A DNA stretch of 64,000 nucleotides from Marichromatium purpuratum 984. GTDB lineage: Bacteria > Pseudomonadota > Gammaproteobacteria > Chromatiales > Chromatiaceae. Of the stretch, positions 1 to 11,977 are shown piece by piece (within the stretch, counting starts at the first letter, position 1; every line of letters starts with the position of its first letter). The notes under the pieces were generated by a model, which made no database searches, was not told where the DNA came from, and saw only the letters and a list, made by a program, of their open reading frames with translations. A program made the translations under genes and the position numbers. The stretch lies in contig NZ_CP007031.1 of NCBI RefSeq assembly GCF_000224005.2, positions 669,501 to 733,500 of the forward strand, read 5' to 3'.

Positions 1-701
1 CGCTCGCGCTCGCTGGTGAAGCTGTTGAGGTTGTTGAGCAGTACGCGATAGCGATGGCGTCCGACCCGCTCGAGGACCTCGTGTTCGTCGATGCGGTTGA
101 TCCCGCGATAGAGCCGCAGGTGGGTGTCTGCGGGGGCTCGGCGTCCCAACTCGTACTGGCCATAGGTATAGAGCAGGTCAAGCTGGGACTCGAGCGCGTT
201 GGTGGCGTAGAGCCCCTGGGTGCCGGCGGCGACATAGCGCAGATAGGTCTCGCTGCCGCGTCCGTGCAGCGGACCGGCGTGGTGGCGCGCGAGCAGACCG
301 AAGCGGCTCTCCACCCAGCGCTTGAGCACCGCACCCTCGCGACCGTCGGAGTCGAACGACCAGCCGCGCACCATGCGCTGGTAGTCGGCCTTGGCGCGTC
401 CGCGACGTCCTCGAGTGAGCCCGGCCTCCTCGGGGAGGTCGAGCAAGAAGCGCCAGCGCATGTAGTCCTGAAAGTGACGCGCGCGTGCGCGATGACCGGG
501 GATGGCGTCGAGGTTGCGCAGCAGTGGGGTGTGGAGCGGGGCGATGCCGTCGAGTTCGAGGTCGACGGGATGGTGCTGGTAGGTGAGGCTGCCGAGGATC
601 ACCGCCGGCAGGTTGCAGCGGTTGAGCGTGAGTCGGGCGTGTGCCGGGAGCGAGGGTGGCGGCGGGTCGGGCGTCTGGGTCGGTTGTCTGTTGCTATCCA
701 T
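1..701 (-). CDS. draT: NAD(+)--dinitrogen-reductase ADP-ribosyltransferase DraT (3' end outside window)
   Basis: DraT transfers ADP-ribose from NAD+ onto a conserved arginine of NifH and so inactivates nitrogenase when ammonium appears or energy fails. About 233 codons are visible from an ATG at 699-701; the remainder runs off the left edge. Family motifs seen in order are NRCNLPAVILGSLTYQ, HFQDYMRWRF, DGREGAVLKRWVESRFGL, LRLYRGIN (the arginine of the R-S-E ADP-ribosyltransferase signature) and SFTS (the serine motif). The catalytic glutamate should lie beyond the edge. The gene is divergent from nifH, as draTG is in Rhodospirillum and Azospirillum (established). A draG partner would be expected just outside the window. 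Identity is from motif recognition and is quite secure. Confidence 0.9.
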   Translation of the reverse strand, partial: MDSNRQPTQTPDPPPPSLPAHARLTLNRCNLPAVILGSLTYQHHPVDLELDGIAPLHTPLLRNLDAIPGHRARARHFQDYMRWRFLLDLPEEAGLTRGRRGRAKADYQRMVRGWSFDSDGREGAVLKRWVESRFGLLARHHAGPLHGRGSETYLRYVAAGTQGLYATNALESQLDLLYTYGQYELGRRAPADTHLRLYRGINRIDEHEVLERVGRHRYRVLLNNLNSFTSERE

Positions 702-704
702 ACA
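689..704 (+). promoter_or_regulatory. NifA upstream activator sequence
   Basis: Perfect TGT-N10-ACA match, the established NifA binding consensus. It lies about 100 bp upstream of the -24 element of the nifH promoter, the usual range for enhancer-type activation. The site overlaps the draT start codon. A second, imperfect TGT-N10-ACC lies at 718-733. Confidence 0.7.
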
Positions 705-771
705 GCCCCTGCGGCTTTGTCGTGGATACGACCATCCGGCCTCTGCCCGAGGGGGGTGGTTAATCGAGCCA

Positions 772-784
772 AATCAATGCGGTA
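772..784 (+). promoter_or_regulatory. Possible IHF site between NifA site and nifH promoter
   Basis: AATCAATGCGGTA fits the IHF consensus WATCAA-N4-TTR except for one base. It sits between the activator site and the sigma-54 promoter, where IHF-assisted DNA bending is typical of nif promoters. A short degenerate motif, so this is only suggestive. Confidence 0.35.
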
Positions 785-801
785 GGTCGTTTTATCGATG
801 T

Positions 802-816
802 TGGCACGGTGGCTGC
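802..816 (+). promoter_or_regulatory. Sigma-54 (-24/-12) promoter of nifHDK
   Basis: TGGCACGGTGGCTGC matches TGGCAC-N5-TTGC with one change (CTGC for TTGC). The GG and GC doublets have the correct 12-base register. It lies 64 bp before the nifH start, downstream of a NifA site, as expected for RpoN/NifA control of nitrogenase. Confidence 0.8.
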
Positions 817-868
817 TTGAGCCTCCGTGTGGATAACGTCGTGCAACGCTCGCCAAGCGAGCCAATGA

Positions 869-6605: not shown

Positions 6606-6651
6606 GCCGGGGGCCGGCCCGTGCTCCTGTCACCGAATCGAGTCCAGTCCG

Positions 6652-7596
6652 ATGACGATGATCGCCAGCACCACCGTCCACCCGCCTGTCGCCGAACTCG
6701 AACTCGCCGTCGCACGGCACTGTCAGGACTGTCCGCCCGAGGGCGGGATCGGGTCCCTGGTCACGACACTCCAACGGCTGTTCCCGGCCTGGCCGCTGCG
6801 CCACGTCCTCACCCGCGGCGGCTGGTATCGGCTCGGCGGCGTGGTCGATCTCGACGGTGAGCGGGTGGCCGAACAGATCCGCCCCTGGGCCGAGGCGGCG
6901 CTCGCCGCCGCCGGCGGTGATCTGGAGCAGATGCTCGACGAGCTGCCGCAGGGGCGTCTGTTCGCCACCCGGATCGAGGGCTGCACCCATTACCTGACCG
7001 TCGCCACCGGGCACAGCCCCGATGCCGCCATCCAGATCGAGGTCGAGGAGCTTCAGGAGGTGCTCGAGCGCCCGCTGACCGATCCCGACTGGTTCCCGGA
7101 GGGGCTCGGCGAGTTCATCGACCCGGTCGATGTCCCCAGGGTCGAGCCCGAGCCGGTGGGGGCGCCGCGACTGGTGTTCCGACGGTTGCTGCGTCTCGAC
7201 ACCCTGGAGGAGCACGACACCGGGTTGCGTCGCTTCTTCGCCGACTGGGCGCGCAGCTCCGCCGGTGAACAGGCGCAGCTCTGTCACCATTGGATTGTCG
7301 CGGTGCGCGATGGCGGAGGACGCGGCAGCGCCCGACCGGTGGCGGCCTGCGCCGCCGCCCCGCCGCTGACCGTCGGCGAGGGCATGCGCGGTACGGCGCT
7401 GGCCAACCAGCTCCACGCCTTCGACCGTCGCCTGGGCTATCCCTTCGCCTGGTACTTCCACATGCTGACCAGCCCGCGGGTGTCGCACCAGCTGGTCGAG
7501 GCGGTGCATGCCGATCTGATGGGCGCCTACGACTATCTGCCGGCGCGCGACCTGCAAGTGCTGCGTGACTGGTATCGAGATCCGTATGGTGTCTGA
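6652..7596 (+). CDS. Uncharacterised protein in nif cluster
   Basis: 314-aa soluble protein starting MTMIASTTVHPPVAELELAV. It lies 46 bp after the preceding nif gene on the same strand. No recognised domain. Visible features are an N-terminal CQDCPPEGG cysteine pair, a conserved-looking HYLTVATGHSPDAAI segment, and an aromatic-rich C-terminal half (RRLGYPFAWYFHMLT, AYDYLPARDLQVLRDWYRDP). No signal peptide or membrane segment. Its place in the operon suggests a role in nitrogenase maturation, protection or regulation; that is inference only. A longer in-frame start exists upstream but would overlap the previous gene. Confidence 0.8.
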   Translation: MTMIASTTVHPPVAELELAVARHCQDCPPEGGIGSLVTTLQRLFPAWPLRHVLTRGGWYRLGGVVDLDGERVAEQIRPWAEAALAAAGGDLEQMLDELPQGRLFATRIEGCTHYLTVATGHSPDAAIQIEVEELQEVLERPLTDPDWFPEGLGEFIDPVDVPRVEPEPVGAPRLVFRRLLRLDTLEEHDTGLRRFFADWARSSAGEQAQLCHHWIVAVRDGGGRGSARPVAACAAAPPLTVGEGMRGTALANQLHAFDRRLGYPFAWYFHMLTSPRVSHQLVEAVHADLMGAYDYLPARDLQVLRDWYRDPYGV

Positions 7597-10330: not shown

Positions 10331-11116
10331 TCATTCGAGCGGACCGAGCTGGGCCGAGCGCCACCAGTCGCGGTACTGGTCCTCGAGCTGCTCGTGATCG
10401 GGGAAGGGGTAATAGGCAAAGTCCTGCTGATCGCCGACATAGAAACCGTTGTGCACCATGCGATAGAGCACCCCGGCCTTGACCTGGCGCAGCACCAGCT
10501 TGCTCGACTTGGTGGTGGCGTCGCTGTTGAGTTCGACCAGGACGTCGCGCAGATGGGCGAGGTTGGGATAGGGCAGGTCGTCGGCCGCGCCGTGCTCGGG
10601 ATCGGTGGCCAGCGCCCCGAGACGCAGCTCGGAGAACACCACCCGGGGGACGTGCACCGGGTTGTCCGGGTCGGTGATGAAGTCGCAGAAGTCGTGCGGT
10701 TCGAGCCGGCTGGCGACCAGCGGGGTGACCGGGCTGAACTCCTGGTAGAGGTGCGAGCGTGGCTCGGGGTGGGGCTGGTAGGGTGCGCGCTCCAGGGTCA
10801 GGGTCTTGCCGTCGTTGGTGACCAGATGGAGGTTGCCGAGGGCGGCGACCGGGATGCGTTCGAGCACCCGATAGATGGCGAGATAGACCGAGCGCTTGAG
10901 CGCGCCCTCGGGGGTGCGCACGCAACGCGCCTCGATCAGCTCGAAGGGCAGGTCGGCGTCACGGAACCCGGGGTCGACCTCGAAGAAGATCGACTCGCCC
11001 TGGACATGGACCTTGGCGCCGATCGAGTAATAGCTGCCGAACGCCTCGGGGTCGAGCATCGAGGCGATCAGCGCCTGCGGGATCAGGGACAGGTAGAGGT
11101 GCTGAGGATCGGACAT
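10331..11116 (-). CDS. Uncharacterised protein (261 aa)
   Basis: Soluble protein starting MSDPQHLYLSLIPQALIASM. It lies 28 bp upstream of hppA on the same strand, so probably in one operon with it. Notable segments are LDPEAFGSYYSIGAKVHVQG, EVDPGFRDADLPF, FITDPDNPVHVPRVVFSEL and YPNLAHLRDVLVELNS. No cysteine-based metal site, no membrane segment. I cannot place it in a named family. The chosen ATG removes 58 upstream in-frame codons that run into the intergenic region and look non-coding. Confidence 0.75.
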   Translation of the reverse strand: MSDPQHLYLSLIPQALIASMLDPEAFGSYYSIGAKVHVQGESIFFEVDPGFRDADLPFELIEARCVRTPEGALKRSVYLAIYRVLERIPVAALGNLHLVTNDGKTLTLERAPYQPHPEPRSHLYQEFSPVTPLVASRLEPHDFCDFITDPDNPVHVPRVVFSELRLGALATDPEHGAADDLPYPNLAHLRDVLVELNSDATTKSSKLVLRQVKAGVLYRMVHNGFYVGDQQDFAYYPFPDHEQLEDQYRDWWRSAQLGPLE

Positions 11117-11230
11117 GCGGAGCCTCGCCTTGGCGGTGGTGTCGGTCGGTAATGCCGGCACATCACTGTCACTATAGATCAGCGCGATGACGACCTCGGA
11201 GTGGGCCTCGTTCTTGCTAACCCTCGACTG

Positions 11231-11373
11231 CGACCCCGTCGTGGGGTCGAACCCGTGCTTCCGTCGGGTGGGTATTTCCTTGATCGGCAAGCGGTTGTGT
11301 CACCAGAACGCAGATTGGCTCAGAACCTCTTGGTGGCAAAACCGACATCACTGTGAGATTCCCACCCCGACGG
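11231..11373 (+). ncRNA. Candidate structured RNA or leader upstream of the 187-aa gene
   Basis: Three nested or adjacent stems are visible. CGACCCC (11231-11237) pairs with GGGGTCG (11243-11249). Outer stem: 11261-11278 pairs with 11355-11373, about 17 pairs with one bulged C and one mismatch (CCGTCGGG against CCCGACGG, TGGG against CCCA, ATTTC against GAGAT). Inner stem: 11292-11305 pairs with 11331-11344, 13 of 14 positions. The non-canonical pairs T11276-G11357 and T11300-G11336, plus G11306-T11330 extending the inner stem, are G-U only in a plus-strand transcript. It ends 40 bp before the next ATG. No known RNA family recognised. An inverted-repeat mobile remnant is the alternative. Confidence 0.45.
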
Positions 11374-11413
11374 ACGCACCCTGATTCCCTGTCCTTTGTG
11401 GAGATCCTGATCA

Positions 11414-11977
11414 ATGTTGCTCGATAGCTATCAACAACAGGAACGGTTCTGGCTCAAGACCCTGTTCGGCGCACCGAGCCGCGAGGGCCTGCAGGTCTTT
11501 CGCGGCGAGTTCGTGGTGCTCGAGGGTGAACTCAAGGCCTCGACCGGCAAGCGCACCCCACCCAAGGCGGTGCTCAAGCAGGCGGTGATGGTCGGCGACG
11601 AGAGCCAGCTGCAGATGGTGGTGGGCAACTTCGCGAGCATCGACGAGCTGCCCGAGTTCGTCGCGCGCTTCCATTCGGCACTGGCCCCGGAGTGTCGTCC
11701 GGTGCTCTTCATCGACAACCTCGCCGAGAGCGCCGAGGTCGAGATCCAGGGCCATTCCTATGTGCTGATCCAGCACAGCGACGGGGTGGTGTGGAGCGCG
11801 CTCACCGAGTGCTGCTATCTCGACAAGCAGGACCTCAAGGGGCTCTCCGGCGAGGACAAGGTGATCCGGGTGTTCGAGGCCCTGGCCGACTACCGGCCGG
11901 AGCTGCCGAGCCGCGACCTGGAGACCATGCTCGCGACCAAGACCGAGGCCAAGCGCACCACCTGGGGCGCGGTCTGA
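11414..11977 (+). CDS. Uncharacterised protein (187 aa)
   Basis: Soluble protein starting MLLDSYQQQERFWLKTLFGA. Visible blocks: FRGEFVVLEGELKASTGKRT, ESQLQMVVGNFASIDELPEF, RPVLFIDNLAESAEVEIQGH and a C-terminal ELPSRDLETMLATKTEAKRT. No signal peptide, membrane segment or catalytic motif recognised. It is monocistronic by layout: the upstream neighbour is divergent and the downstream ampG-like gene is convergent. The long folded segment 40 bp upstream may be its leader. The start codon follows GGAGATCCTGATC, a weak ribosome-binding site. Function unknown. Confidence 0.75.
   Translation: MLLDSYQQQERFWLKTLFGAPSREGLQVFRGEFVVLEGELKASTGKRTPPKAVLKQAVMVGDESQLQMVVGNFASIDELPEFVARFHSALAPECRPVLFIDNLAESAEVEIQGHSYVLIQHSDGVVWSALTECCYLDKQDLKGLSGEDKVIRVFEALADYRPELPSRDLETMLATKTEAKRTTWGAV

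Follow-up and report, generated by a model that had tools for sequence, protein, structure and literature searches.

Genes and features at the locus

The window (the whole 64,000-nucleotide stretch of Marichromatium purpuratum 984 DNA that was analyzed) starts with nifH, nifD and nifK, named from their translations, followed by a nifX-like gene. The folded segment considered here (positions 11231–11373) has a divergent 261-aa gene on one side and a 187-aa gene on the other (Table 1); at this locus M. gracile and M. bheemlicum are the closest relatives, with protein identities of 95% and 83%, respectively. The 261-aa gene adjoins the 187-aa gene only in Marichromatium and one MAG. The block TCACTATAGATCA (11170–11182) is strongly conserved in Marichromatium and recurs in very similar form in one related MAG; it is found only together with the divergent 261-aa gene and is probably the promoter of that gene. 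The segment had no match in a plasmid collection.

Table 1. Features in and around the folded segment (window coordinates).
Feature	Position	Strand	Remarks
Divergent 261-aa gene	10331–11118	-	family unknown
Sigma-54 −24/−12 element GGGCCTCGTTCTTGCT	11203–11218	+	GG-N10-GC, TTGCT; aligned in 12/12 Chromatiaceae
Predicted 5′ untranslated leader	11229–11413	+	~185 nt; placed from the promoter position
Hairpin	11231–11237 with 11243–11249	+	7 bp; ~+3 of the predicted transcript
Outer long-range stem	11261–11278 with 11355–11373	+	17 pairs, one bulged C, one U-U mismatch
Inner stem	11292–11305 with 11331–11344	+	13/14 positions paired, G-A at 11297–11339
Degenerate NifA-type palindrome GGT-N10-ACA	11332–11347	unstranded	inside the leader; 113 bp 3′ of the promoter 16-mer
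Ribosome-binding GGAG motif	11399–11403	+	nearly all relatives have an aligned TGGAGA-type motif
187-aa gene	11414–11977	+	nif-linked conserved protein without Pfam or NCBIfam family

Several observations tie the 187-aa gene to nitrogen fixation. In Pseudomonas, Stutzerimonas, Azotobacter and methylotrophs, its orthologues have nifHDK or nifX-like genes as neighbors, and the M. purpuratum genome encodes both NifA (701 bits) and RpoN (481 bits), each scoring above its curated cut-off. In Stutzerimonas the orthologue is located 3′ of a 308-aa ORF that is divergent from nifH, an arrangement that matches the one described in P. stutzeri A1501 for pnfA and PST1324 (PMC2820453); in that organism pnfA is NifA–sigma-54-dependent, and PST1324, in the pnfA-headed group, is up-regulated 26-fold under nitrogen fixation (PMC2820453). 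From its position in this syntenic arrangement, we infer that PST1324 is the orthologue of the 187-aa gene. Shared ancestry of the 316-aa gene in the window (6646–7593) and the pnfA-like Stutzerimonas ORF was considered and was not supported. The AlphaFold model of the 187-aa protein is confident (pLDDT 91.8), and a search with it gave no PDB match at an E-value of 0.001 or better. The locus links this conserved protein without annotation to the nitrogen-fixation regulon.

A conserved sigma-54 element upstream of the 187-aa gene

We aligned the upstream regions of the 187-aa-gene orthologues from 12 Chromatiaceae genomes, the window included. The alignment contains two conserved blocks, a sigma-54 element followed by a palindrome. 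The consensus for promoters recognized by sigma-54 (RpoN) is GG-N10-GC at −24/−12, that is, TGGCACG-N4-TTGCW. A plus-strand GG-N10-GC with TTGC, the feature that characterizes these promoters, is present in all 12 upstream regions at −196 to −303 from the ATG, and in 10 of the 11 regions scanned the sigma-54 site with the best score is a plus-strand one; taken alone, the copy in the window is weak, matching the consensus at 8 of 12 positions.

The conserved element ends ~12 nt before the segment; because it is on the plus strand and precedes the 187-aa gene, we read the segment as the 5′ leader of the mRNA for that gene, an assignment that is well supported by the aligned sequences. The predicted start, 11229, was placed 12 nt beyond the −12 C. 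The first-pass annotation had favored a selected plus-strand RNA that may be a leader or riboregulator of the 187-aa gene, or a free-standing RNA; the conserved promoter bears out the leader, and the selected structured RNA or riboregulator is not established (vide infra).

A NifA-type palindrome within the predicted leader

The second conserved block reads CTTTGT-N10-ACA in the alignment, and TGT-N10-ACA is the enhancer motif of the activator NifA. At the matching place the motif is exact in eight of the 12 genomes and has one mismatch in the remaining four; the window is one of these, and its left half is degenerate (GGT). The palindrome is located −82 to −122 from the ATG across the 12 Chromatiaceae; when 400-nt regions are shuffled, an exact TGT-N10-ACA is found in only 0.7–7% of them. 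The elements occur in the order promoter, palindrome, gene in every genome (12/12), with a promoter–palindrome distance of 144–150 bp in seven genomes, 112–115 bp in Marichromatium, and 78 and 169 bp in two others. A NifA site is usually found ~100 bp upstream of the promoter; here the palindrome is downstream in all 12 Chromatiaceae, and a scan of 11 regions out to 900 nt upstream found no second exact TGT-N10-ACA.

Two sets of sites allow the motif to be compared. Upstream of the same gene in Methylomonas and its relatives, TGT-N10-ACA is located at ~−173 to −192 and TGGCAAG-N5-TTGC at −61 to −69, that is, in the textbook order with the palindrome upstream of a good promoter. The nifH promoter region of the window (689–817) contains two NifA-type palindromes of the same class, TGTTGCTATCCATACA at 689 and TGTCGTGGATACGACC at 718 (TTTGTCGTGGATACGACC from 716), and a sigma-54 site at 802.

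The palindrome could bind some regulator other than NifA. It is downstream of the predicted start, where operators are common, and in Marichromatium it is also upstream of the 261-aa gene at an enhancer-like distance; it might then be the operator of a repressor or other regulator, or serve the divergent gene, instead of being a NifA enhancer. However, the motif matches both the nifH sites of the window and the canonical Methylomonas sites, and the divergent neighbor is confined to Marichromatium and one MAG whereas the palindrome is present in all 12 genomes. A minus-strand sigma-54 promoter for the 261-aa gene was also considered and rejected, as most species have no comparable site. We therefore regard these readings as quite unlikely and retain NifA as the most likely ligand of the palindrome.

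Two further arrangements were observed among the relatives. In Thiorhodococcus mannitoliphagus, ~22 bp (about two helical turns) are present between promoter and palindrome in addition to the spacing in its relatives, and this extra sequence adjoins another, degenerate palindrome copy. In the loci of three Thiodictyon MAGs, the 187-aa gene has no palindrome of its own and is directly 3′ of a homologue of the window gene at 6646–7593, with a gap of ~45 bp in two of them; this suggests an operon that was later split in Marichromatium.

The fold of the segment

All of the stems described in the first-pass annotation are present on the plus strand (Table 1), and the minimum-energy fold of the segment, at −59 kcal/mol, includes every one of them. 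The z-score against shuffled sequences is −2.8 to −2.93, with one of 200 shuffles equally stable; for the entire predicted leader the minimum free energy is −74.3 and the z-score −2.75. As background for these values we used 420 random 143-nt windows from the same 64 kb, for which the mean z-score is −0.35 (sd 1.13); 3.6% of them are at least as extreme as the segment, and 49% reach a minimum free energy of −59 or below, owing to the high GC content of the DNA. The fold is beyond chance yet not striking, that is, it is unusual but not rare.

The asymmetry of the non-Watson–Crick positions had been taken as a sign of a plus-strand RNA; this argument is weak because the minus strand of the segment folds nearly as well (z −2.0). 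One of the G-U pairs on which it was built, T11300–G11336, is G-G in both congeners, and this part of the argument falls away. The first-pass annotation had recognized no known RNA family, and a scan of the window with Rfam identified tRNAs only, with no match for the segment at the gathering threshold.

The direct repeat ACATCACTGT (11160–11169 and 11345–11354) that had been pointed out exists in the window and is absent from M. gracile and M. bheemlicum. An inverted repeat that is long and imperfect and is flanked by a direct repeat might point to a mobile repeat such as a MITE or REP; however, the segment occurs once in the genome (no second match with an E-value below 0.2) and occupies the orthologous position in the two congeners. 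With a single copy and no dispersed ones, the MITE that had been named as the refuting alternative is excluded, and we give any mobile repeat next to no chance.

Conservation of the stems in relatives

In M. gracile, 16 of the 17 outer pairs, 11 of the 13 inner pairs and all seven hairpin pairs are kept; in M. bheemlicum the corresponding numbers are 11/17, 8/13 and 6/7. The conservation of stems that the first-pass annotation had asked about is therefore found in part: the outer stem and the hairpin persist in M. gracile, and the inner stem, which erodes in the congeners, is not conserved. The covariation that it had proposed to look for is likewise limited to a few pairs in a comparison of three sequences. 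In M. bheemlicum, double-sided changes affect four of the 37 pairs, two each in the hairpin and the outer stem; the inner stem has no compensatory change in either M. gracile or M. bheemlicum. The two in the hairpin were counted in the MAFFT register, and in the ensemble fold of M. bheemlicum itself the pairing probability of the hairpin is near zero.

These data bear on a selected cis-acting leader RNA, in which the hairpin and the long stem would act alongside the promoter in Marichromatium and control how stable the 187-aa mRNA is or how well it is translated. The z-score of the segment (−2.9) is in its favor, as are the four double-sided pairs, compared with 1.3 in shuffles (7/500) and 0–2 in slid controls. 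In addition, the region of the outer 3′ arm keeps its partners in the region of the 5′ arm in all three species (mean pairing 0.86, 0.85 and 0.53); the minimum-energy fold of M. bheemlicum uses different registers, yet there too this pairing occurs about half the time. However, the tests for compensatory change use three sequences, only one of which is informative; a substitution simulation gives P ~0.02 for the total number of pairs kept and 0.25 for the compensatory count, and the chance probability of as many kept pairs in the outer stem of M. bheemlicum is ~0.08. The whole M. gracile leader has a z-score of only −0.3, and the outer stem leaves the ribosome-binding site uncovered.

A long stem enclosing the palindrome was also considered as a trait of the whole family and rejected: its duplex energy is significant against shuffles only in the window (P 0.017) and M. 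gracile (0.033), with P 0.16 in M. bheemlicum and no significant flank-to-flank stem around the palindrome in the nine other Chromatiaceae. Outside a single genus the data lend no support to a selected structured RNA, and we consider the cis-acting RNA unlikely within that genus.

We lean instead toward chance pairing in GC-rich intergenic DNA as the origin of the inverted repeats. As described above, 3.6% of random windows reach the z-score of the segment and half reach its free energy, and the inner stem decays in the congeners; the 16 of 17 outer pairs kept in M. gracile and the compensatory changes in M. bheemlicum count against it. Chance pairing is compatible with the leader proposed for the 187-aa gene, which needs no stems. 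The 3′ arm of the inner stem is conserved most simply as the DNA palindrome, with which it coincides, and not through pairing; this is a caution that the conservation of one half of a stem should not be taken as conservation of RNA where a DNA-binding palindrome explains it.

Proposed mechanism

We consider it probable that the segment is the leader of the nif-associated 187-aa gene, with a sigma-54 promoter ahead of it and a NifA-type site inside it. The aligned sequences show that promoter and palindrome keep their position and form across the Chromatiaceae; the binding of NifA, its action from a downstream site and the start at 11229 are inferred. The sigma-54 polymerase would sit at 11203–11218 and transcription would start near 11229. 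Enhancer-binding proteins contact the sigma-54 polymerase by DNA looping from upstream sites; in the mechanism proposed here the activator, most likely NifA, would bind the palindrome at 11332–11347, ~100 bp downstream of the start, and loop the DNA back to contact the polymerase. The hairpin would begin at ~+3, and the outer stem would cover most of the leader; in Marichromatium the fold may at most stabilize the message, or it may be incidental.

The window copies of both elements are degenerate (promoter 8/12; GGT instead of TGT), which counts against this mechanism. NifA normally binds upstream of the start, at a distance of at least ~100 bp (PMC2820453), and a literature search of incomplete coverage found no report of a NifA site downstream of a promoter. 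If the mechanism is correct, it would suggest that a nif enhancer can be active when it is located within transcribed DNA. A more far-reaching version, in which NifA activates from inside the leader at a near-fixed distance throughout this family of purple sulfur bacteria and the Marichromatium leader RNA is also folded around the enhancer such that transcription and RNA folding could influence NifA binding, seems to us quite unlikely.

Comparison with known systems

The locus resembles the NifA–sigma-54 nif promoters, e.g., those of nifH and the pnfA operon of P. stutzeri A1501 (PMC2820453), in its −24/−12 GG-N10-GC element, its TGT-N10-ACA-type palindrome, its nif-linked gene and a host genome that encodes NifA and RpoN. 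It differs from them in that the Chromatiaceae palindrome is 78–169 bp downstream of the promoter, in the predicted transcribed leader, and in that the window copies are degenerate. All of the parts belong to the known NifA–sigma-54 kind except for the position of the site; because a downstream site departs from the usual defining feature, we describe the locus as a variant that would work like these promoters and not as a canonical member.

As with Rfam cis-regulatory leaders, the segment would be a structured 5′ leader of a bacterial gene; unlike them, it matches no family at the gathering threshold and its structure can be traced within the genus only. Sigma-54 flagellar promoters, such as those controlled by FleQ and FlrC, have enhancer sites downstream of the promoter. 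They share with the locus described here an enhancer-type site in the leader, which in our case is predicted from sequence, and they differ from it in activator, motif and class of gene.
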